NCBI GenBank assembly: GCA_946892665.1 | Contig: CAMPOT010000001.1 | Location: 310,001 to 374,000, forward strand | Length of the DNA: 64,000 nucleotides | Reading direction: 5' to 3' | Origin: Chryseobacterium sp. Marseille-Q5410 | Lineage (GTDB): Bacteria > Bacteroidota > Bacteroidia > Flavobacteriales > Weeksellaceae | Shown: positions 11,528-60,772 of the stretch, one piece after another | How the letters are laid out: every line of letters starts with the position of its first letter | Numbering within the stretch: position 1 is the stretch's first letter | Position numbers and translations under genes: made by a program | The notes under the pieces: generated by a model | What the model saw: the letters and a program-made list of their open reading frames with translations, nothing else | What the model was told of the DNA's origin: nothing | The model's database searches: none

Positions 11528-13231
11528 TTATTTTTTGGTTTCGGTTTTGCCGCTTGCCAAAATTTTCTCTAAAATTCTTAAAGTAATTAAATATGTTGGT
11601 TTCACTCCTGTTAATCCCAAACCTCCGGAAGATAGGGTGGAACCTGTTTCCAAAGGATTATCTGAAGCGTAATAAGCATACATTACAAATAGATCTTCCG
11701 AAATATGGTGGCGGATTTTTGATGCGACTTGTATTGCTTTTTGGTAGTGAGCTCCTTCCATTTCCAAACCAATGGCTTTCCAAGAAGTATCCATGAAATA
11801 GCGCAGAATGTCTTTGTTCTGAAGTGAAGTTCCGAGTACCGTAACCATTCCTCCTTCGAATGCTTGTAGTTCATCATCTTCGAAATCTGAAAGTTTCAAC
11901 GCATTTTCAAACGGATAATTATCGGCAGTTCCTTCGAAAACGTGAGAGGTTGGAATCATGATATCTCCTTTTCCTCCTTTTAAAATGCCGGCCTTACCCA
12001 TGATCGAGATGGATTTTACCTTCATGGTGTAGATTTCGCCATTGTAATCGTATGGGCGGAGAAGTTCGTCCATCACTTCGAAAGCTTGTTCCCCGAAAGC
12101 ATAATCGAAAACCATTATCACATCGTCTCCGCCGAACTTGATTCCTGAGAAAGGAGTGTTTTTAAGGTCGGTTTTGGATAAATCGATGATCTGCACATCG
12201 ATGTTGCTACCACTTTGATCATCAATATAAATTAGACCGGCTTTCTGTGAATGTTCAAGAACTTTTTCCTGCAATGATTTCTTGTTGGAAATTTCTTCAT
12301 AAAGTTTGAAATCTACATCTTTAGTTGATTTTTTTCCTACCGCATCGTTGGCATAAAGCATATTCTTAACCGAATGCATGTTCGCAGAAATGATGTGAAG
12401 TGGACGCATTTGTAGATTGTTGTCAGCAAGAACTTCTTTCACTTTATTGGCCCATTTTTCCCCGAAAAAGTGGTGGCCTACTCTTTCCCGAAGGATCGCT
12501 GAGAAATGCACTTCGCGCTCTCTTGTTTTTTTATAATCATTAAAACTTTCGTTTCCTAAATGATAAATGATTTTGAAAAGTCGATCTGGATTATTATCAT
12601 CACCGAAATTATTATAAGCATTCAAGGTTTCATCGAAAGTTCTTCCCAATAGTGATGAAAGATGAATCAACGCAACTTCTTTTTCTTTTCTGCTAAATTT
12701 TTTCTCACCTGTTGCTACTTCTTCGATGATTTTCCAGGCACGCGTAGGTTTGTCGTTTTCATCCGAAATGAAAGCGAGATTTTTAATTTTATCCGCTTCT
12801 ATATATAAGAAGGTAAGGTGGGTAAGAATATCGTAGATTTCAGAACGTCCTAAAAGTACCTCGATATTCATTTGGTGCTTATCGATGCGATAGCAGTTTC
12901 TGCGTCTTTTCTTAGGAACAATAACCTCGAAGCTGCCTTTTTCGAATCCTTCGTCGGAAGTAAGGTGAATGAATGAACATTCTTCGATTCCTTCCGGAAG
13001 ACGATCGAGTACATACATGAGCCCGTCTAGTTCAATTTTATTGGGAACGCCCATTGTTCCGTAAATTTCCGGGTTGATGGTCATTAATAGTGACCGAAGA
13101 CTTTCGCCGGAGATCCCGGAAGGTTTGAAAAAACCGCGATAGAATAAGTGTCGCATTGAAACATATAGTCGCTCAATTGCTTCTGTAGTTTCTCTTGCTC
13201 GTGAATTTACCATAGGTGTATCTTTTGGCAA
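11528..13231 (-). CDS. Conserved hypothetical protein with nucleoside-phosphorylase-like C-terminus
   Basis: This is a 567-residue cytoplasmic protein. I think it belongs to the Bacteroidetes DUF6909 family, recalled from memory. The first 300 residues are helical with no motif I recognise. The C-terminal half carries features of the purine/uridine phosphorylase fold: a GLEMEGAHYQKA segment (compare the VEMEAA signature), a following YYASDNPL (compare the SD-x-P end of the active site), and VTVLGTSLQNKD. This suggests a nucleoside- or nucleotide-binding domain, but catalysis is not shown. It is a single gene with its own terminator, next to glutamine synthetase on the other strand. Confidence 0.6.
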   Translation of the reverse strand: MPKDTPMVNSRARETTEAIERLYVSMRHLFYRGFFKPSGISGESLRSLLMTINPEIYGTMGVPNKIELDGLMYVLDRLPEGIEECSFIHLTSDEGFEKGSFEVIVPKKRRRNCYRIDKHQMNIEVLLGRSEIYDILTHLTFLYIEADKIKNLAFISDENDKPTRAWKIIEEVATGEKKFSRKEKEVALIHLSSLLGRTFDETLNAYNNFGDDNNPDRLFKIIYHLGNESFNDYKKTREREVHFSAILRERVGHHFFGEKWANKVKEVLADNNLQMRPLHIISANMHSVKNMLYANDAVGKKSTKDVDFKLYEEISNKKSLQEKVLEHSQKAGLIYIDDQSGSNIDVQIIDLSKTDLKNTPFSGIKFGGDDVIMVFDYAFGEQAFEVMDELLRPYDYNGEIYTMKVKSISIMGKAGILKGGKGDIMIPTSHVFEGTADNYPFENALKLSDFEDDELQAFEGGMVTVLGTSLQNKDILRYFMDTSWKAIGLEMEGAHYQKAIQVASKIRHHISEDLFVMYAYYASDNPLETGSTLSSGGLGLTGVKPTYLITLRILEKILASGKTETKK

Positions 13232-42856: not shown

Positions 42857-43744
42857 TTAGAAAGTAATTTTATAAGTTCCGGTTGATGAGGTCGAAGCTT
42901 TTTCGGCTTTTACATATTTTTTCACCCAAGAAACTGATGTTGATGCAACGCAGGGATCGGATATTCCTCCTGATCTTCTGGCGGAAATTACGTTTCCTGC
43001 CTTATCGACGGTGTAAGAAACCGTTATGCTTCCGCTGGCTGAGCAATTATGCGCTGGCTGTTGGCCGCCACGTCCCATCGTTCCGGGGATGTAACCGATT
43101 AATTTTCTGTCAATCCCAATTTTGCTATCGCCATCACCATCACCGCCCAAAGGATCGCCTTGGTTTCCAATGCCGGTTCCGGTGCCTTGTGATCCGGCTT
43201 TTGTACCACGTCCTTTAATTAAATTTCCAATTGCAGCGGTACCTTTCCCGTCGCCTGAGCCGGTTGTAGAATTGGAGGTTGTGGATTTGGAACTTGTTGC
43301 TTTTGCCGAAGATTTTGATGAAGATGCAGCGGTTGATTTTGCATTCTTCTCTGATTTCTCAGGAGTTTTTACCGTATTTTTAGCACTTGTTCCTGTAATT
43401 AATTTTTCTTTTGCAACCTCTTTTTTAGTGATTTCAACAGCGTTCGAAGGCTTTGCAGTTTTAGCTTCAGATTCCGCTTCCGCAGTAGTTTCTAGGGTTG
43501 TTGGATCGCTTGTTGCGGCCAAACTTCCTTCTTGTTCGGCGGGTTCTTCTAAGCCATTCCCGTTTCTGTTGTCACCGAAATTGATGAGCATGCTGGTTAC
43601 AGCCTCATCTTTCGCGGGAATGGTGGTGGTAAATTTATAAAGAGAAACAAACAGCAGGAGAGCGGACCAGATGATCGCGGTGATAATTCCGCTTTTAATC
43701 TTGTCTTTATTTTCGTCCTTTCTATTGATGCTGTATTGGTTCAT
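42857..43744 (-). CDS. TonB-like energy transducer
   Basis: The start is placed at ATG 43744 (MNQYSINRKDENKDKIKSG, 295 residues); a second ATG at 43762 overlaps exbD by eight bases. One N-terminal membrane helix (about 20-40) is followed by a long low-complexity periplasmic linker rich in S, T, K, A and G (SKSSAKATSSKST and GTGTGIGNQGDPLGG). The C-terminal domain ITVSYTVDKAGNVISARRSG resembles TonB/TolA-type C-domains. It lies directly after exbB and exbD, so it is likely the periplasmic transducer of this motor. Confidence 0.82.
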   Translation of the reverse strand: MNQYSINRKDENKDKIKSGIITAIIWSALLLFVSLYKFTTTIPAKDEAVTSMLINFGDNRNGNGLEEPAEQEGSLAATSDPTTLETTAEAESEAKTAKPSNAVEITKKEVAKEKLITGTSAKNTVKTPEKSEKNAKSTAASSSKSSAKATSSKSTTSNSTTGSGDGKGTAAIGNLIKGRGTKAGSQGTGTGIGNQGDPLGGDGDGDSKIGIDRKLIGYIPGTMGRGGQQPAHNCSASGSITVSYTVDKAGNVISARRSGGISDPCVASTSVSWVKKYVKAEKASTSSTGTYKITF

Positions 43745-43754
43745 TTTATCGGTC

Positions 43755-44153
43755 TTAATCATCTTTCGTAGTGGCAATCGCGATGCTGTATTTATGTTTT
43801 TCGGCAATTTCCATCGCAAAAACTACGTCTTTATGAAACGAATTTTTGTCTGCTCTAATGGTAAACGAAGGCTTTTGAGTGTTTTTTAATTTTTCGACGA
43901 GTACCGATTCCAAAGTTTCTTTTTTTACAGCAACATCATCTACAAAATAAGAGCCATCTTCTTTAATGCTAACGGTAACTTGGTTTGGGATGCTTGGATT
44001 TTCAAGTTCGCCTTTCGGCAGCTCCACATCAATCGCACTTTGGTTAGCCGCTGCGGAAGTCACCATGAAAAAGATGAGGAGCAACAAAATCACATCCACC
44101 ATTGCAGCGAGACTGAACTCGGGATTTGCTTTATTTCTGCGTTTAAGTTTCAT
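43755..44153 (-). CDS. exbD: ExbD/TolR-family biopolymer transport protein
   Basis: The 132-residue protein has the short cytoplasmic N-terminus MKLKRRNKANPEFS, one membrane helix with the essential Asp in SLAAMVDVILLLLIFFMV, and a periplasmic beta-rich domain. This is the pattern of ExbD/TolR, the rotor/stator partner of ExbB that uses the proton gradient. The gene lies 3 bases after exbB and overlaps or abuts the TonB-like gene. Confidence 0.93.
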   Translation of the reverse strand: MKLKRRNKANPEFSLAAMVDVILLLLIFFMVTSAAANQSAIDVELPKGELENPSIPNQVTVSIKEDGSYFVDDVAVKKETLESVLVEKLKNTQKPSFTIRADKNSFHKDVVFAMEIAEKHKYSIAIATTKDD

Positions 44154-44156
44154 GAT

Positions 44157-44840
44157 TTACGATGGTTTGTTGATGATATCTAAAAAGTCGGTAGAAAGGT
44201 GTTGTACCTTCAGAACAAATTTATCAATTCTCGTTAAAAGTAAATTATAGAAAAAATTGGAAGGAATTGCCACTGCAAGACCCATTGCTGTTTGCCCGAG
44301 AGCGGTATATATTCCTTCGGAAAGCGTTTTCGGGGAGAAAGATCCTTCAGCATTGGACATGCTGAAAAAAGCCATAATCAATCCGATTACCGTTCCTAAA
44401 AGTCCCAGCATTGGCGCTAAGCTTGGTACGGAGGCTAAAAGATTCAGGTTTTTTTCTAATTTGGAAATTTCTATTTGTGCTTGGCTTTCCATTGCGCTTA
44501 CAATATCGGAAATCGGTCGTCCGATGCGTGTGATTCCTTTTTCCAGAATTCTGGCTTCGGGAGTATTTTGTCTTTCGCAATAATCAATAGCGGCATCTAC
44601 ACGGCCCTGATTCAGTAAATCCGCAATGTTATTCATTAAATTCGTGTCGTTTATTTTCAACATTCGGTTGATGTAAAATAACCTTTCAAGAAATATATAA
44701 AGTGAGAAAACACCCAATGCAAGTACGGTGCACATTACGATATTAGCGAAAAGATTTCCGTGGAAAATGATTTTCCAGAAAGAGAAAACTTGCTCCTGCG
44801 TTTCCGGCGTTACGGCTTGTGCTGCTGCTTGTAAAAACAT
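44157..44840 (-). CDS. exbB: ExbB/TolQ/MotA-family proton channel protein
   Basis: The 227-residue protein has three membrane segments and the family blocks LERLFYINRML, the long cytoplasmic loop with KNLNLLASVPSLAPMLGLLGTVIGLIMAF shortened to LAPMLGLLGTVIGL, and GIYTALGQTAMGLAVAIP, all typical of ExbB/TolQ. It forms the proton channel that energises TonB-dependent import. First gene of the exbB-exbD-tonB run. Whether it serves TonB or Tol function cannot be told from sequence alone; the partner's TonB-like C-domain favours Ton. Confidence 0.93.
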   Translation of the reverse strand: MFLQAAAQAVTPETQEQVFSFWKIIFHGNLFANIVMCTVLALGVFSLYIFLERLFYINRMLKINDTNLMNNIADLLNQGRVDAAIDYCERQNTPEARILEKGITRIGRPISDIVSAMESQAQIEISKLEKNLNLLASVPSLAPMLGLLGTVIGLIMAFFSMSNAEGSFSPKTLSEGIYTALGQTAMGLAVAIPSNFFYNLLLTRIDKFVLKVQHLSTDFLDIINKPS

Positions 44841-55598: not shown

Positions 55599-55675
55599 TA
55601 GGTCCAAATTTACTACTTTTGAAGAGCAAAATTCATTCTAAATACGATTTATCTTAAAAATCTGTTTTTAAAAAG

Positions 55676-56206
55676 ATGAAAACAATCCTAATTATTCTGA
55701 TGAGCATTTCCTTACAAATGTGTTCTCAGGTACATAAACCCGAAAAAGAAAAACAAATGGAAAATATTACCACCAACAGCAATCCTTATTACTCAAGGAC
55801 AGATCGTTCTAAATTAACCGTTAGCAACGAAGAATGGAGAAAAATCCTATCTCCGGATCTTTATGCAATCGCCCGCGAAGCTGCTACAGAAAGACCGTTC
55901 ACGGGAAAATATAATCAATTTGATGAACTCGGCGAATATTACTGCGCGGTTTGTGGGAACCATCTTTTCCGGTCAGACTCCAAGTTTTCTTCAACTTGCG
56001 GATGGCCTAGTTTTTTTGAAGCTGATAAAGAAGGAGTTGCTTACAACAGAGATTCTTCCCACGGAATGGAAAGAATTGAAGTGGTCTGCAAACGCTGCGA
56101 TTCGCATCTTGGGCACGTTTTCAACGATGGACCGGCTCCAACCGGAATGCGTTATTGCATGAATTCGGTTTCGTTGGAGTTTGTAGGAGATTCAGAAAAG
56201 AAATAA
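55676..56206 (+). CDS. msrB: Peptide-methionine (R)-S-oxide reductase, lipoprotein
   Basis: MsrB reduces methionine-(R)-sulfoxide in oxidised proteins. The 176-residue protein has a lipoprotein signal with lipobox LQMC (Cys 16), so it is likely anchored in the envelope. The MsrB domain shows the zinc Cys pairs Cys 90/93 (YYCAVCG) and Cys 138/141 (VCKRCDSHLGH), the catalytic Cys 161 in GMRYCMNSV, and TCGWPSFF. It ends at a terminator shared with the convergent metal operon. Confidence 0.94.
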   Translation: MKTILIILMSISLQMCSQVHKPEKEKQMENITTNSNPYYSRTDRSKLTVSNEEWRKILSPDLYAIAREAATERPFTGKYNQFDELGEYYCAVCGNHLFRSDSKFSSTCGWPSFFEADKEGVAYNRDSSHGMERIEVVCKRCDSHLGHVFNDGPAPTGMRYCMNSVSLEFVGDSEKK

Positions 56207-56208
56207 AA

Positions 56209-56237
56209 AAATTGCGGAACATGAAATTCCGCAATTT
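56209..56237. terminator. Bidirectional terminator between msrB and the metal operon
   Basis: Perfect 11-bp arms AAATTGCGGAA and TTCCGCAATTT (loop CATGAAA) begin three bases after the msrB stop. They are preceded by an A-run and followed by TTTATA, so both directions can use it. Confidence 0.8.
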
Positions 56238-56258
56238 ATATCTAAATAAAACTTTCAT

Positions 56259-56732
56259 CTAAGTTAAAGGTGCTCCAACTTGTAAATCGCAACGGTGATG
56301 CGGTTGGCCATGAGGCGGATTCAGAGCCGGTTTCGGACCGATATCTGCAGAGGAAGAAACCGAAGGAGCAGCTGATGGCGAAATTGGATTGGTGTTAAAA
56401 CCAGCATTTGGCGCACTTTGTGGTTGTACCACTTGCGGAGCGGCGTTTTGTACTGGTGCCGGACTGTCAATTGGCGCTCCAACAGCGATATCACATCTAT
56501 GGTAAGGTTCGCCGTGGGCTGGATTCAGCGCAGGTTTGCCACTTGGTGAAGTGTTGTCTGCTAAAGTATTTTTTTCCGAAGCGGAGATTGGGGAAGTTGC
56601 GTCTTCCGCGGATTTGGTTTCAGGTGCAGTGGTTGTTTGTGCCGCCGAATTTTGAGTCTCCGTGTTTTTGGTGTTTTTACAGGAAGTAGCGATAGCTGCA
56701 ACTGCAAAAATCATTACAATAACCTTTTTCAT
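56259..56732 (-). CDS. Lipoprotein with two KPALNPxHGxPxHRCD repeats
   Basis: The 157-residue protein has a lipoprotein signal (MKKVIVMIFAVAAIATSC, Cys 18). A Pro/Ala/Ser/Thr/Asn-rich, probably disordered chain carries two 22-residue copies of the motif KPALNPxHGxPxHRCDxxVGAP, at residues 66-87 and 134-155. Each copy has His-Gly, His-Arg-Cys-Asp: candidate metal ligands (H73, H78, C80 and H141, H146, C148). The gene lies 16 bases after the HMA/TonB receptor gene on the same strand and so is the third gene of the operon. A role in copper or other soft-metal binding at the outer membrane is an inference. Confidence 0.75.
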   Translation of the reverse strand: MKKVIVMIFAVAAIATSCKNTKNTETQNSAAQTTTAPETKSAEDATSPISASEKNTLADNTSPSGKPALNPAHGEPYHRCDIAVGAPIDSPAPVQNAAPQVVQPQSAPNAGFNTNPISPSAAPSVSSSADIGPKPALNPPHGQPHHRCDLQVGAPLT

Positions 56733-56748
56733 ATCTAATATTTTATTT

Positions 56749-59418
56749 TTAATTAAAGGAAAAATCTATACCTAGATAAAAGTTCGCAGGCATGATCGGA
56801 GCATATACCATTCCACCATCAAAATAATTTCCAAATGGATTTTTTGCGTCAATGATCGGCTGGTTTTGGGTATAGCTTGTTAGATTTTCTCCTCCCAAAT
56901 ATACACGAATATTTTGATTAAAGTTTCTGGAAATCTGCGCATTCAAAGTTGCAAATGAATCGGAATAATCCGCAAGTCTAAATTCTTCGGGATTCGAGTT
57001 GAGATTGGGAAGTTTTTGTTTTCCTACGAGTTGTAGCGTGGTGTCGAAATTCCAGAACCCTCCTTTTGAATTTTTTTCTGTAGAATAGGAAGCATTAAAA
57101 AATCCTCTGTTTTTCGCCATAAAAGGAATTTGTCTTTTTCCACCCGCAAAATCCGCTTGTACATCATAATATTTATAGGCAAGCCGCAATTCCAGGTTTT
57201 TTGCAGGAACAAAATCGAGCTGGGTTTGGAAGCTGTTGGCGAAGGATTTCCCATTAAGGTTATAAAAAACAATTTTGGTCGGCGAAATGTCCAAATCTGC
57301 CAACACCTGATCCTGGAAATCGGTTCGGAAAAAATCAGCTACTAAGGTCGCTTTTCTGTTGAAAAGTTTGAATTCCTGCTGAAGACTTGCTCCGTAATTC
57401 CAGGCGATTTCCGCTTGTAAATCATAAATTTCTCCCCCATTTTCTATGATTTCAATCTGTCTGTTGGAAGCGAAATATTGTTGGTTTTCAGCAAAAATAT
57501 TGGCCGTTCTGAATCCTTTTCCGGCAGAAAGTCTCAAGATTGTCTTCGGAGAAATGTCGTATTTAAAGTTCAATCTCGGTGTAAACTGCGTTCCGGCAAG
57601 GTTGTGAAAATCGGTTCTTGCACCCGCAACTAAGGTGTACTTTAAACCTGTTAATGTATATTCAAAGAATAGTCCGGGAACGGTTTCAGTTCTTTTAAAA
57701 TTCTGAGTCAGATAATTTTCATCGAAATCATCATACAAAAAACTCGCTCCAGCTTTGTATTTATGGTTGGTGTTACCTATGATGCTTTCGAAAATTAAAT
57801 TAGAATAAAACGTTTTTTCTTTGCCCAGATAATTTCTATTTCCAAAAAAACTGTCCTGCTGATGATAAGTAAACTGGTTCATCCAGCCGATACTTTGGTA
57901 AGGTTTTCCCTTAAAAACATAGCCGGTTTTATTCCAGATATCGAATTTGGCAATATCGATTCCAACTCCATACAGACTTTGTTGGCCTTGCGGAATGTCT
58001 TTATCGAAATCTTTTTGCCCGCCGAATCTTTCATCGTTAACGAAACTTATTCCAAAATGCGTACTCAATCCGGAGTTTTCTAAATCATTGTAATTCAATA
58101 AGTAAGCTGCATTAATCTGGTTTCCTGTCGGTTGGTCTAGAAATCCGTCGTCATTGGTATCCATTTTGGCCAAAGTCGCGTTTCCGTGGAGCAAAAAAGT
58201 TTGGTTCCAATGGTCGGAAACAGCGCTGGTTGAAGTGATGTTGGTTTCAAATCTTCCGTTCATATCACCGAAAAAATTCAGTGCTGTTTCTGGTTTTTCA
58301 TTAAATTTTAAAAATTCGGTGTTAATTTGGCCTGTAATACTTTCGTATCCGTTCGTAACGGTGCTTCCGCCTTTTGTTAGCTGAATTCCGCCAATCCATC
58401 TTCCGGGAATCAAATTCATTCCATAAGGTGATGCCAAACCGCGGATGGACGGCAAAAGTTCTTTTGTTAAAGAGGTGTACTTCTGGTCTAAACCTAACAT
58501 CTTCAGCTGCTTGGTTCCGGTAACCGCATTGCTGAATGCGACATCAACGGTTGCATTTGTTTCAAAACTTTCAGACAAATTACAGCAGGCCGCTTTCAGC
58601 AATTCTTTAGAGCTGATGTTGAAGGTAAGTCCGGTTTCTTTTTTGCTTAAAGCTGTTGCTTCACCCATTTTGATAATTTTCACTTCATCAATACTTTTGT
58701 CAACATGATCGGCATGAAGGGTAAAATCTTTTTTTGGAGCAGCAGATTCGTCGTGATGAACTAAATCGCTTTTTACTCCAAGCGGAAGATTTCTGTCGTA
58801 AAGGCAACAGCTTGGCAGATTTTTGTAAACATCATCAGTAGCTTTGTACATCTCATTATCATGGCCTACATTGGCAATCATTTTTAGAATTGCATCCGAC
58901 GATGTTTTAGTTGGATCGAAATCTAAGGTAACAAGTTGTGCATCAGCATCCCAGTTTGCAGAATTTGCACCTGCAGTTTTTGCTGCTTTTTCGATTCTGG
59001 CTTTGCAGGAACTGCAATTACCTCGCACAAAAAATTGGTTTGCAGCTTTTTTTGGGGTAGAATTCTCGGCTGACTTCAAGAAAGAAGGTTCTCTTTCATA
59101 ATGGCAACAACTCGGTAGTTCGTTATAAACATTATTTGGAGCTGCGAATTTTTCGTTATCATGCCCTGCTTCCGCAATTTTTTTTAGAAGTTCATCAGGA
59201 TTTGTTTTTGCGGTGTCGAATTCTACCGTAAGTTGTTGGGTTTCTGCTGACCAGCGAGCAGAATTTGTTCCCGCTTTTAATGCAGTGGTTTCGATTCGTT
59301 CTTTGCACATTCCGCACTCGCCTTTCACCATAAAAGTGGCAGTGGAAATGGTTTGCGCAAAAATAATATTGGAGAATAAAAGTGAAAAAGCAACAAGGCT
59401 TTTGAGAATTGTTTTCAT
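56749..59418 (-). CDS. TonB-dependent receptor with two N-terminal HMA domains
   Basis: The 889-residue protein has a signal peptide (about 1-21) and two HMA-like units repeated with an exact spacing of 100 residues: CxxC at 35-38 (CGMC) and 135-138 (CSSC), GHDNE at 85-89 and 185-189, LPSCC at 101-105 and 201-205. A His-rich linker (LVHHDESAAP, TLHADHVD) leads to a TonB plug and a beta-barrel from about residue 350 (ending FYLGIDFSFN). The usual receptor has a carboxypeptidase-like N-domain; here metal-binding domains take its place. A role in TonB-dependent import or binding of copper is inferred. Confidence 0.88.
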   Translation of the reverse strand: MKTILKSLVAFSLLFSNIIFAQTISTATFMVKGECGMCKERIETTALKAGTNSARWSAETQQLTVEFDTAKTNPDELLKKIAEAGHDNEKFAAPNNVYNELPSCCHYEREPSFLKSAENSTPKKAANQFFVRGNCSSCKARIEKAAKTAGANSANWDADAQLVTLDFDPTKTSSDAILKMIANVGHDNEMYKATDDVYKNLPSCCLYDRNLPLGVKSDLVHHDESAAPKKDFTLHADHVDKSIDEVKIIKMGEATALSKKETGLTFNISSKELLKAACCNLSESFETNATVDVAFSNAVTGTKQLKMLGLDQKYTSLTKELLPSIRGLASPYGMNLIPGRWIGGIQLTKGGSTVTNGYESITGQINTEFLKFNEKPETALNFFGDMNGRFETNITSTSAVSDHWNQTFLLHGNATLAKMDTNDDGFLDQPTGNQINAAYLLNYNDLENSGLSTHFGISFVNDERFGGQKDFDKDIPQGQQSLYGVGIDIAKFDIWNKTGYVFKGKPYQSIGWMNQFTYHQQDSFFGNRNYLGKEKTFYSNLIFESIIGNTNHKYKAGASFLYDDFDENYLTQNFKRTETVPGLFFEYTLTGLKYTLVAGARTDFHNLAGTQFTPRLNFKYDISPKTILRLSAGKGFRTANIFAENQQYFASNRQIEIIENGGEIYDLQAEIAWNYGASLQQEFKLFNRKATLVADFFRTDFQDQVLADLDISPTKIVFYNLNGKSFANSFQTQLDFVPAKNLELRLAYKYYDVQADFAGGKRQIPFMAKNRGFFNASYSTEKNSKGGFWNFDTTLQLVGKQKLPNLNSNPEEFRLADYSDSFATLNAQISRNFNQNIRVYLGGENLTSYTQNQPIIDAKNPFGNYFDGGMVYAPIMPANFYLGIDFSFN

Positions 59419-59487
59419 TTTTTTTTAATAATTTAATTTAATAAAAGTTTTGCCAAAAGAACATACTTTCGGCTGTCGTTCAATAAA

Positions 59488-59862
59488 TTAAGCTATTTTG
59501 GGCGGTTGCCAGATATTATGAAAACTAGATGAAAAAAATAGAATTTCATAGTTGAAATTTATTTTTTTATGGATTGTGTTTTTAGTCGAAGTGGCATAAA
59601 TCTCCGGAGAAATAAAGTGGAAAACGGCACCCAACGAACAAGTGTGGCATTTTGCACAATCGTTTGCGCAGTTGTTTTGCTCAGATTTTTTTGAAGGATT
59701 TTCCGGTTGACAAGGTTTTTTATCCTCGCTTTTGCAGCAATTTTCTTTTGCTGATTTCAGCTCGCAACATTTTTGAGCAGTTTGGGCAAAAGTCATTTGG
59801 CTTGGAAGTACAAAAACTGCCAAACCGATAATCATTAAAAAGATTTTAGCAAATTTCGCCAT
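59488..59862 (-). CDS. Small Cys-rich exported protein (HYC_CC_PP type)
   Basis: The 124-residue protein has a signal peptide (MAKFAKIFLMIIGLAVFVLPSQMTFAQ, cleavage about residue 27) and nine Cys, all in the mature part: Cys 32/33, 42/43, 51, then a cluster C65-x3-C69-x2-C72-H73-x-C75 (CANDCAKCHTC). The C-terminus IWQPPKIA resembles the Pro-Pro end of the family that I recall as HYC_CC_PP, found beside metal-related TonB receptors. It starts the operon with the HMA/TonB gene (69-base gap). Its TACCTTTG element is seven bases before the ATG. Confidence 0.72.
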   Translation of the reverse strand: MAKFAKIFLMIIGLAVFVLPSQMTFAQTAQKCCELKSAKENCCKSEDKKPCQPENPSKKSEQNNCANDCAKCHTCSLGAVFHFISPEIYATSTKNTIHKKINFNYEILFFSSSFHNIWQPPKIA

Positions 59863-59869
59863 GCTTTTG

Positions 59870-59877
59870 CAAAGGTA
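59870..59877 (-). promoter_or_regulatory. Probable -7 element of the metal operon
   Basis: TACCTTTG on the minus strand (TAnnTTTG match) ends seven bases before the first ATG of the operon, which implies a leaderless or very short-leader mRNA. The -33 half is not clear, so regulation by an activator is possible. Confidence 0.45.
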
Positions 59878-59947
59878 TATAATTTTATTTTAAGAAAAAT
59901 AGATGAGTTAAAGTTTCTTAATTAGATGTTAAAAAGTATTCATTTAA

Positions 59948-59977
59948 TTGTTTGATAATTAAATAATTGTAGTTTTG
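59948..59977 (+). promoter_or_regulatory. Promoter of the L,D-transpeptidase-like gene
   Basis: TTG (59948-59950), a 19-base spacer and TAGTTTTG (59970-59977) fit the consensus. The ATG is 30 bases downstream. Confidence 0.7.
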
Positions 59978-60007
59978 CGAACTCAATTTTATTTAACATA
60001 ATATCAA

Positions 60008-60772
60008 ATGAAGAAAATTCTTTTAGCACTGGTTTTGGTTTTCATTGTCGCGACATCTTTTTATAAAAATAATATGGCGATGGATTTAAACTCAAAACCA
60101 ATATTAGAAGCTAAACTGAAAAATAAGTCGAATGCATCGATGAAAAATTCAGTAAAAGTGGTTGGCAATGAACTCTACACGTCTCTTAGTTTTGTAGGTT
60201 TTGATACGCTTAATTCTGAAGTTTTTGCCAAAGCATTTTTAGGATTTCAGCAACTTAAAAAAGCTGGTAAACTTCCGGAAAATTCTCATCTTCTCACCAT
60301 TTGCGATTTCTCTTTATCTTCTACAAAAAAAAGATTGTGGGTGATCGATCTTGAAAATAAAAAAGTACTTTTTAATTCTCTAGTTGCTCATGGGAAAAAT
60401 ACGGGTGAAGAATTTGCAACTGCATTTTCAAACACAGAAAGTTCTTACCAAAGCAGCCTTGGTTTCTATGTAACCGAAACCACTTACAATGGAAGTAATG
60501 GCTATTCCCTGAAACTTTTAGGAATGGATGCGGGGTACAATGATGCGGCTTTGCAACGGGCAATTGTGATGCATGGAGCGGATTATGTAAGCGAAGATTT
60601 TATAAAATCTCAGAAAAGAATCGGGAGAAGTTGGGGCTGTCCTGCAGTTCCTAGAGCTTTGGCAGAACCTATCATCAATACCATTAAAGGGAAAAATTGT
60701 TTATTCATTTATTATCCCGATCAGCAATATTTGTCAGAATCCGAATGGTTAAAATCTGAAGAATTTAGCTAA
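60008..60772 (+). CDS. Murein L,D-transpeptidase catalytic-domain family protein
   Basis: The 254-residue protein has an N-terminal hydrophobic segment (MKKILLALVLVFIVATSFY) that may be a signal or anchor, a helical region to about residue 90, and a YkuD-like C-terminal domain. Catalytic elements are VMHGADYVSEDF with the His, and RSWGCPAVPRALAEP with the Cys. In L,D-transpeptidases this pair makes 3-3 cross-links or attaches proteins to peptidoglycan. The exact reaction here is unknown. Closed by the shared terminator at 60773. Confidence 0.88.
   Translation: MKKILLALVLVFIVATSFYKNNMAMDLNSKPILEAKLKNKSNASMKNSVKVVGNELYTSLSFVGFDTLNSEVFAKAFLGFQQLKKAGKLPENSHLLTICDFSLSSTKKRLWVIDLENKKVLFNSLVAHGKNTGEEFATAFSNTESSYQSSLGFYVTETTYNGSNGYSLKLLGMDAGYNDAALQRAIVMHGADYVSEDFIKSQKRIGRSWGCPAVPRALAEPIINTIKGKNCLFIYYPDQQYLSESEWLKSEEFS

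Follow-up and report, generated by a model that had tools for sequence, protein, structure and literature searches.

A candidate nascent-chain copper switch ahead of an HMA-bearing TonB-dependent receptor in Chryseobacterium

In Chryseobacterium sp. Marseille-Q5410 (Bacteroidota; Flavobacteriales; Weeksellaceae), three neighbouring genes raise the question of why a TonB-dependent receptor with two heavy-metal-associated (HMA) domains should be preceded by a small protein rich in Cys and followed by a lipoprotein with a repeated His/Cys motif. The locus belongs to a stretch of 64,000 nucleotides (assembly GCA_946892665.1, contig CAMPOT010000001.1, positions 310,001 to 374,000 of the forward strand), referred to here as the window and numbered from its first letter. 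A first-pass annotation of this DNA had described the genes as a dedicated capture or relay chain for a soft metal such as copper, matching no system that could be named. The analysis presented here leads to a different view of the first gene, and we consider it probable that the operon serves copper import and is gated by this gene, whose product would act as a nascent-chain copper sensor. The three genes are:

59488..59862, minus strand: gene 1, a 124-amino-acid Cys-rich leader protein, CutF/CruR-like, with an export signal seen by eye
56749..59418, minus strand: gene 2, the HMA-HMA-TonB-dependent receptor, 889 amino acids
56259..56732, minus strand: gene 3, the HRCD-motif lipoprotein, 157 amino acids

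The coordinates of the window's open reading frames (ORFs) bear out the common strand and the gaps of 69 bases between gene 1 and the receptor and 16 bases between the receptor and the lipoprotein given in the first-pass annotation. A sample of 35 genomes of the same genus, together with the window's own, yielded 36 loci, the receptor being found in 35/35 of the sampled genomes and in that of the window, which has no second relative of it at E ≤1e-5. The co-occurrence of the genes within 5 kb, put forward earlier as a check, holds in this genus: gene 1 lies directly 5' of the receptor in 36/36 loci, and the lipoprotein lies 3' of the receptor in 34 of them and 5' of gene 1 in the remaining ones, L067 and L068.

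Gene 1 has indeed nine Cys, counted in the translation at residues 32, 33, 42, 43, 51, 65, 69, 72 and 75, and its hydrophobic N-terminus, ending in FAQ, was read by eye as a Sec-type export signal. Its interpretation as a leader depends on two further elements:

59638..59649, minus strand: CXXC of gene 1 (C72-H-T-C75)
59497..59508, minus strand: Q-P-P-K codons of gene 1, a candidate ribosome-arrest site, with the Pro-Pro (PP) starting five residues from the C-terminus

The PP occupies residues 120-121 of 124, and its spacing from the CXXC is 44 residues. All of the same-genus loci (36/36) conserve the CXXC, a spacing of 43-45 residues, the PP five residues from the C-terminus and the sequence WQPPK. 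Since an export signal, a CXXC, 44 residues and a PP near the end are features of CutF and CruR, gene 1 is likely to be a copper-responsive leader of that kind, and unlikely to be a capture protein.

In CruR, which heads the operon of a copper TonB-dependent transporter, a CXXC is followed after 45 residues by RAPP, and mutation shows that both motifs matter (PMC9426467); its arrest has been obtained in vitro, with a toeprint corresponding to the first Pro in the P-site (PMC12992588). Like CruR in the CruR-BfrG/CrtA system of Bordetella pertussis, gene 1 encodes a small CXXC protein with a PP near its C-terminus and, judged by eye, an export signal, and is the first gene of a three-gene operon (a probable one in the window) containing a TonB-dependent transporter, for copper in the case of CruR. 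Unlike CruR, it has no DUF2946 match and bears WQPPK instead of RAPP, the gap that follows it is 69 and not 162 bases long, and this gap takes part in a stop-to-start helix, CruR having a reported Rho site; the window's receptor, moreover, carries HMA domains and a plug Cys-Cys. The likeness to CutF, from the CutF-CutO system of Rhodobacter capsulatus, lies in a length below 150 amino acids, an export signal (by eye here), a metal motif, a PP within the last 15 residues and a stem-loop before the downstream start. CutF-like proteins have been selected by nearly the same features, with Bacteroidota accounting for 40% after normalising and TonB-like proteins as frequent neighbours, and the resulting list includes Bacteroidota, with no RNA structure from this phylum described in the part of the paper available (PMC9973294). 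CutO, a multicopper oxidase, is synthesised in response to copper, whereas the target in the window is an import receptor. Thus, the earlier statement that the combination matches no system needs narrowing, CruR-CrtA and CutF-CutO being close published analogues.

Outside the genus, the order-level set comprises 73 loci (13 + 60), in 62 of which a Cys-rich ORF lies upstream of the receptor. A PP within the last 25 residues is present in 51/62 of these leaders, compared with 43/382 of the other ORFs shorter than 200 amino acids (a control that takes in ORFs that may not be genes) and 72/1011 of all ORFs in the fetched DNA. In addition, 80 named loci were gathered through the receptor, partly via its plug motif, and 79 of them were analysable; an upstream Cys-rich ORF accompanies the receptor in 75 and contains the PP in 66/75, a count in which some ORFs that are not leader-like (e.g., L192, L202, L216, L228) were kept. 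Two layouts can be distinguished. In the short one, represented by 57 leaders, the PP lies 5 residues from the end in 56 and the last Cys lies 43-45 residues from it in 53. In the long one, represented by 72, the distance from the PP to the end is 14 or 17 residues in 61, and that from the last Cys to the PP is most often 57. Long-layout leaders (e.g., L039:7258-7650 and L044:13521-13973) have, after the PP, a tail that looks conserved and terminates in FYS, FYA or FLI.

The end of gene 1 has a second property, at the level of the mRNA, where it is predicted to pair with the sequence preceding the receptor start:

59484..59496, minus strand: 5' strand of the outer RNA helix, formed by the last codons and stop of gene 1
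59452..59473, minus strand: inner hairpin of 8 base pairs, GCCGAAAG-loop-CTTTTGGC, in the spacer between gene 1 and the receptor
59428..59440, minus strand: 3' strand of the outer RNA helix, with its end 9 bases 5' of the receptor ATG

The spacer of the window folds with -14.3 kcal/mol (z -3.37), and 0/200 shuffles are as stable. Across the genus, the structure is made of two helices, an inner one of 8 pairs and an outer one of 9 pairs that joins the last two codons and the stop to the pre-start sequence; 89.6% of its cells are paired, slid versions pairing in 32-56%, and changes on both sides occur in 9/17 pairs, a degree of covariation reached by 0/500 shuffles. A helix, defined here by at least six expected pairs linking the stop region to the stretch ahead of the start, was found in 30/31 genus spacers (31 of the 36 loci were kept, as only distinct sequences with spacers of 44-150 bases were used) and in 74/83 other leader-target spacers, versus 25/315 control gene pairs. 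Counted by genus, it is present in 27/33 leader genera versus 7/38 control genera (9/100 control pairs). The p values of the comparison by spacer, and those of the duplex and laxer measures given below, are inflated because related sequences were treated as independent. The genera below this threshold were g18, g26, g51, g59 and g80, with g41 just short of it. A duplex measure gave, outside the genus, a median z of -3.13 with respect to shuffles; L015 and L023, low in this and in a laxer measure owing to a receptor start called too far upstream, which shortened the spacer, were still counted.

The structure persists while its sequence changes, and a covariance model is therefore of little use outside the genus: among 35 other loci, with E values up to 1 admitted, its single match was L106 (0.012), and in the window's genome it gave its own place and the antisense of this. 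A search of 55600-60200 with Rfam, at E up to 1, yielded no match. We also considered, and discarded, the possibility that an intrinsic terminator separates gene 1 from the receptor, as the hairpin is not followed by a T run and is absent from the terminator scan, which lists no terminator-like hairpin between any of the three genes.

The product of gene 2 is predicted to be a TonB-dependent receptor with a plug and β-barrel fold. In agreement with the first-pass annotation, which had assigned it two HMA domains, Pfam recognises TonB_dep_Rec_b-barrel (E 3.3e-22) and, in two stretches, HMA (E 1.4e-13; 51.5 bits, with a cut-off of 24.8). Its Cys-containing elements, followed in alignment A5 (the window's receptor plus 59 of the 79 analysed loci), are:

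59104..59349, minus strand: HMA1 with its LPxCC tail, residues 24-105 (C35, C38, C104, C105), each Cys present in 10/10 A5 rows having the stretch
58804..59037, minus strand: HMA2 with its LPxCC tail, residues 128-205 (C135, C138, C204, C205), each Cys present in 31/31 A5 rows having the stretch
58582..58587, minus strand: plug Cys-Cys (C278, C279; KAACC motif), present in 15/15 rows of alignment A3, 73/73 order-level loci and 60/60 A5 rows

The ten Cys of the receptor thus make up five pairs, each invariant in A5 where its domain is present, and H411 is likewise invariant (60/60); the loci of A5 were found partly through the plug motif. In 15/73 order-level loci, this Cys-Cys was missed by the pattern and recognised by reading. 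A profile built from 15 diverse receptors matches 180/246 genomes of the order at E up to 1e-60, the weakest of which may be other receptors. The best PDB match of the receptor profile is XusA (9gbc, E 8.5e-18). The structure model of the receptor reaches a mean predicted local distance difference test (pLDDT) score of 85.5, with about 92-96 over most of HMA1 and high confidence in the HMA units, and its Foldseek matches include FepA, PfeA, BtuB and OprC (rank 29).

The HMA domain with its CC tail (HMA-CC) is not always a part of the receptor: it is fused to it in the window's family and forms a secreted protein of its own in many relatives. According to pattern searches, it is fused in 7/73 order-level loci and encoded by a separate gene nearby in 43/73; among the 79 analysed loci, HMA is fused in 36 (in two copies in 15) and separate in 43. 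The window's receptor therefore unites in one protein what many relatives encode separately, and the occurrence of HMA-CC either fused or separate supports a direct hand-over between the receptor and the HMA-CC protein. The N-terminus of a TonB-dependent receptor faces the periplasm, and so the HMA units should be located there.

Regarding the cargo, a PDB search with HMA2 brings up copper-ATPase domains (1p6t, E 1.4e-5), and the HMA units also match models of MerP and CopZ. They share with CopZ, the N-terminal domains of CopA and MerP the CXXC domain and the Pfam family, differing from them in the additional LPxCC tail and in the fusion to an outer-membrane receptor. The same module recurs among copper genes: in L032, L033 and L035, HMA-CC is found within a DUF3347-type protein preceded by a small protein that is rich in Cys and has WQPPKI, WLPPKIS or WLIPKIS at its end, and near these modules multicopper oxidases, a CopA-type ATPase (L033) and a resistance-nodulation-division (RND) pump (L035) were recognised by eye. 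The HMA and DUF3347 of L033 were checked by Pfam, HMA scoring 23.0 bits, just under its cut-off. The presence of the module in copper-resistance islands makes copper the likely cargo, and a copper relay at the receptor is likely from the conserved Cys pairs and these relatives, although such context is not proof that copper is the metal transported. Thus, the idea of a soft-metal chain fits the receptor and is unlikely to hold for gene 1 as a capture protein, given its leader features and the RNA helix.

Several observations touch on the same module. The pairs of leader and HMA-CC-DUF3347 gene (L032:6448-7761, L033:6940-8311 and L035:7125-8497) combine the same kind of leader with a different target. 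A CusB-like adaptor, identified by eye in L037:8755-10650, terminates in the same HMA-LPGCC module. Several proteins of about 187 amino acids with an HMA-like N-terminus and an AraC-type DNA-binding end (by eye) are encoded near copper-related genes in the window's genome, at L051:5970-6530, L053:3155-3730 and 12508-13071, and L054:5179-5748; they are possibly metal-sensing regulators.

Gene order, motif conservation, the CXXC-PP spacing, the fused and separate HMA-CC, the covarying helix and the modules among copper genes are the data that support copper import gated by gene 1. From them we infer the identity of the metal, the pausing of the ribosome, the sign of the response and the order of the relay. 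The limits of the transcript are suggested by two features:

59870..59877, minus strand: TAnnTTTG promoter-like box TACCTTTG, ending 7 bases 5' of the gene 1 ATG
56209..56237, minus strand: terminator-like hairpin of 12 pairs after gene 3, a consensus match only

We take TAnnTTTG to be the Bacteroidota promoter (-7) element; the box occurs in 36/36 same-genus loci, with a spacing to the next ATG of exactly 7 bases in 28/36, counts that have no chance control. The terminator scan as a whole was barely above shuffles (7 sites, with a shuffle mean of 4.5). Transcription would start next to the gene 1 ATG and proceed through to the terminator after gene 3. Taking into account the length of the ribosome tunnel, when the ribosome reached the WQPPK end of gene 1 the CXXC, made 44 residues earlier, would be just out of it. 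With copper scarce, the ribosome would pause at the PP and cover the 5' strand of the outer helix (the last two codons and the stop, which occupy +10 to +18 when the P-site holds the first Pro), exposing the translation start region of the receptor. Copper binding to the nascent CXXC would relieve the pause, the helix would re-form and the receptor would not be made. For an import operon, a pause relieved by copper makes sense, as in CruR. The receptor would then import copper or a copper chelate with energy from TonB, and the metal would pass from the plug Cys-Cys to the two periplasmic HMA-CC domains, acting as a built-in metallochaperone.

A precedent for the opening of such a helix is found in SecM-SecA, where arrest reportedly takes place a few codons before the stop, as at the candidate site of gene 1, and the stem-loop in the spacer opens on ribosome stalling. 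From this precedent, a ribosome paused at the end of gene 1 should keep the receptor start open. SecM differs in that it senses protein export, not metal, and in its motif.

A number of observations weigh against this switch, and several of them favour an ordinary translational coupling, in which the helix would tie receptor synthesis to the translation of gene 1 reaching its stop, with no metal sensed by the nascent chain. A stop-to-start helix can equally mean plain coupling, which requires nothing beyond the helix. The helix is also present in 9/17 leaders without PP and in 13/34 other Cys-rich pairs, a laxer threshold of four pairs is passed by 64/194 controls (leaders: 30/32 in the genus, 37/38 elsewhere), the duplex measure goes only weakly beyond shuffles inside the genus (median z -1.08), and the outer helix lacks its middle pair in 16/35 genus rows. 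The weakest point of the switch model is the long layout: outside the family, a distance of 14 or 17 residues from the PP to the end prevails and the helix remains at the stop codon, so that it accompanies both layouts regardless of the PP position. In the long layout, 39-66 bases separate the pause site from the end of the stop codon, so that a ribosome paused there would not cover the helix and the same pause would not open it. It is not obvious that a single mechanism could account for both layouts; in the long one, the sign may be reversed or, alternatively, the role of the helix may be plain coupling. The copper responses of CutF and CruR are themselves opposite in direction. Coupling leaves unexplained, however, the CXXC-to-PP distance fixed in all the genus loci, the excess of PP near the C-terminus of leaders over small ORFs, and the existence of such leaders before a different copper gene, and we regard it as rather unlikely.

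The leader assignment has its own contrary points: gene 1 has no RAPP and no Pfam DUF2946 match (E up to 0.1; relaxing E to 1 gave none in 10 leaders, gene 1 among them), the PP is missing in 11/62 order-level leaders, and 11/73 order-level loci lack such an ORF (4 of the 73 are cut off upstream). If gene 1 instead encoded a secreted metal-binding protein whose role is to capture or store copper and deliver it to the receptor, its export signal, as read by eye, and its nine Cys would be accounted for, but not the fixed C-terminal PP and CXXC spacing, as in arrest leaders, or the use of its last codons as a strand of the RNA helix; the comparable CutF is, moreover, rapidly degraded after export (PMC9973294), and this possibility appears very unlikely to us. 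At the receptor, HMA-CC is found as a gene or fusion in only 48/73 order-level loci by patterns, 25 showing neither, and plug residues 282-284 and 286-295, beside the Cys-Cys, have pLDDT values below 50. A cargo other than copper as such (another soft metal or a metal chelate, with zinc, silver, mercury or a foreign metallophore as candidates) would agree with the resemblance of the HMA units to MerP, with the import of chelated copper by CrtA at low ligand selectivity (PMC12914433) and with the absence from the receptor of CxxxM and HxM, the motifs of OprC. As neither pattern is present, an OprC-type copper site was rejected; in this the receptor differs from OprC of Pseudomonas aeruginosa, a TonB-dependent copper receptor found among its Foldseek matches. 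The copper islands of the relatives, with the same modules, argue against another cargo, which we judge improbable. Copper import gated by the nascent chain of gene 1 is thus the reading retained.

The role of gene 3 is a complement to this reading and not a competitor of it. As described before, the lipoprotein carries two copies of a His/Cys motif, read as NPxHGxPxHRCDxxVGAPx:

56466..56537, minus strand: HRCD motif, copy 1, in gene 3
56262..56333, minus strand: HRCD motif, copy 2, in gene 3

The protein is small and consists mostly of a linker rich in Pro, Ser, Thr and Ala, and a lipoprotein signal-peptide model is the one Pfam or NCBIfam entry that scores above its cut-off. A profile of the motif, which could bind metal, finds 52/246 genomes of the order (E up to 0.001) and 22/296 of the phylum (E up to 1e-5). 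In the window's family, 33/39 genomes have the gene, and all 33 place it on the same strand as the receptor and within 0.9 kb of it, 25 on the upstream and 8 on the downstream side. In the 19 other genomes with the motif, all from family f3, probably Flavobacteriaceae, it is separated from the receptor by more than 100 kb in 10, is carried on another contig in 7 and is not placeable in 2, so the gene is tied to the receptor locus in one family only. Upstream HRCD genes (L067:9147-10530, L068:4884-6276, L080 and L096) adjoin a gene for an OmpR-type response regulator, recognised by eye, and have three motif copies instead of two.

From its linkage, the lipoprotein may be a partner of the receptor. 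A working partner that captures copper or a copper chelate would resemble XusB or BtuG, since XusA-XusB and BtuB-BtuG of Bacteroides thetaiotaomicron are Bacteroidota TonB-dependent transporters with a lipoprotein partner, and XusA is among the profile and fold matches of the receptor. In contrast to XusB and BtuG, the HRCD lipoprotein is small, linker-rich and without a recognised domain; the receptor occurs without the gene in 6/39 genomes of the family, and in f3 the two are unlinked wherever both could be placed (17/19). We thus advance this partnership only tentatively. Of the claim that it is a member of a metal chain, the linkage stands, within the family.

Next to the end of the operon lies an MsrB gene (55676-56206; SelR, E 2.5e-48) with a lipoprotein-like start, which is the same neighbour in several genus loci. 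With respect to the exbB-exbD-tonB-like cluster to which the supply of energy had been tentatively attributed, ExbB (44157-44840) and ExbD (43755-44153) are recognised by Pfam, and the third gene (42857-43819) is TonB-like by eye and has no Pfam match at E up to 0.01.

As regards novelty, the regulatory principle is already known and the variant is new. RAPP/RGPP leaders of TonB-class genes have been reported throughout Gram-negative bacteria (PMC12992588), which lowers it; the same source reports such leaders of copper genes as missing in Bacteroidota. CrtA orthologues are mostly from beta- and gamma-proteobacteria according to the published CrtA work, and another receptor, with the OprC motif, has been proposed for Bizionia (PMC11213822). 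Literature searches on TonB receptors for copper or with HMA domains, covering Bacteroidetes, Flavobacteria, Capnocytophaga, Riemerella, Flavobacterium and Chryseobacterium, found no paper on the window's system, and the receptor family, the HMA-CC fusion and the stop-to-start helix were not met in the parts of the literature covered. The wider proposal that Bacteroidota commonly gate copper import by nascent-chain sensors with a non-RAPP arrest motif (WQPPK, APP or PPP types) and a stop-to-start mRNA helix, the receptors being a new family of copper transporters with a path from plug Cys-Cys to HMA-CC, fused in some lineages, has in our estimation an even chance of being correct.

Copper uptake across the outer membrane is poorly known in Gram-negative bacteria, OprC (Pseudomonas) and CrtA (Bordetella) being the receptors met in the literature available. 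The present analysis adds a defined receptor family of Bacteroidota with a possible metal path visible in its sequence, and a candidate translation-arrest switch with separable parts, i.e., the CXXC, the PP, the stop codon and the helix. What had been taken as a Cys-rich capture protein is recast as a probable regulator, and PP leaders of the window's type could be the Bacteroidota's own copper version of the RAPP/RGPP leaders.

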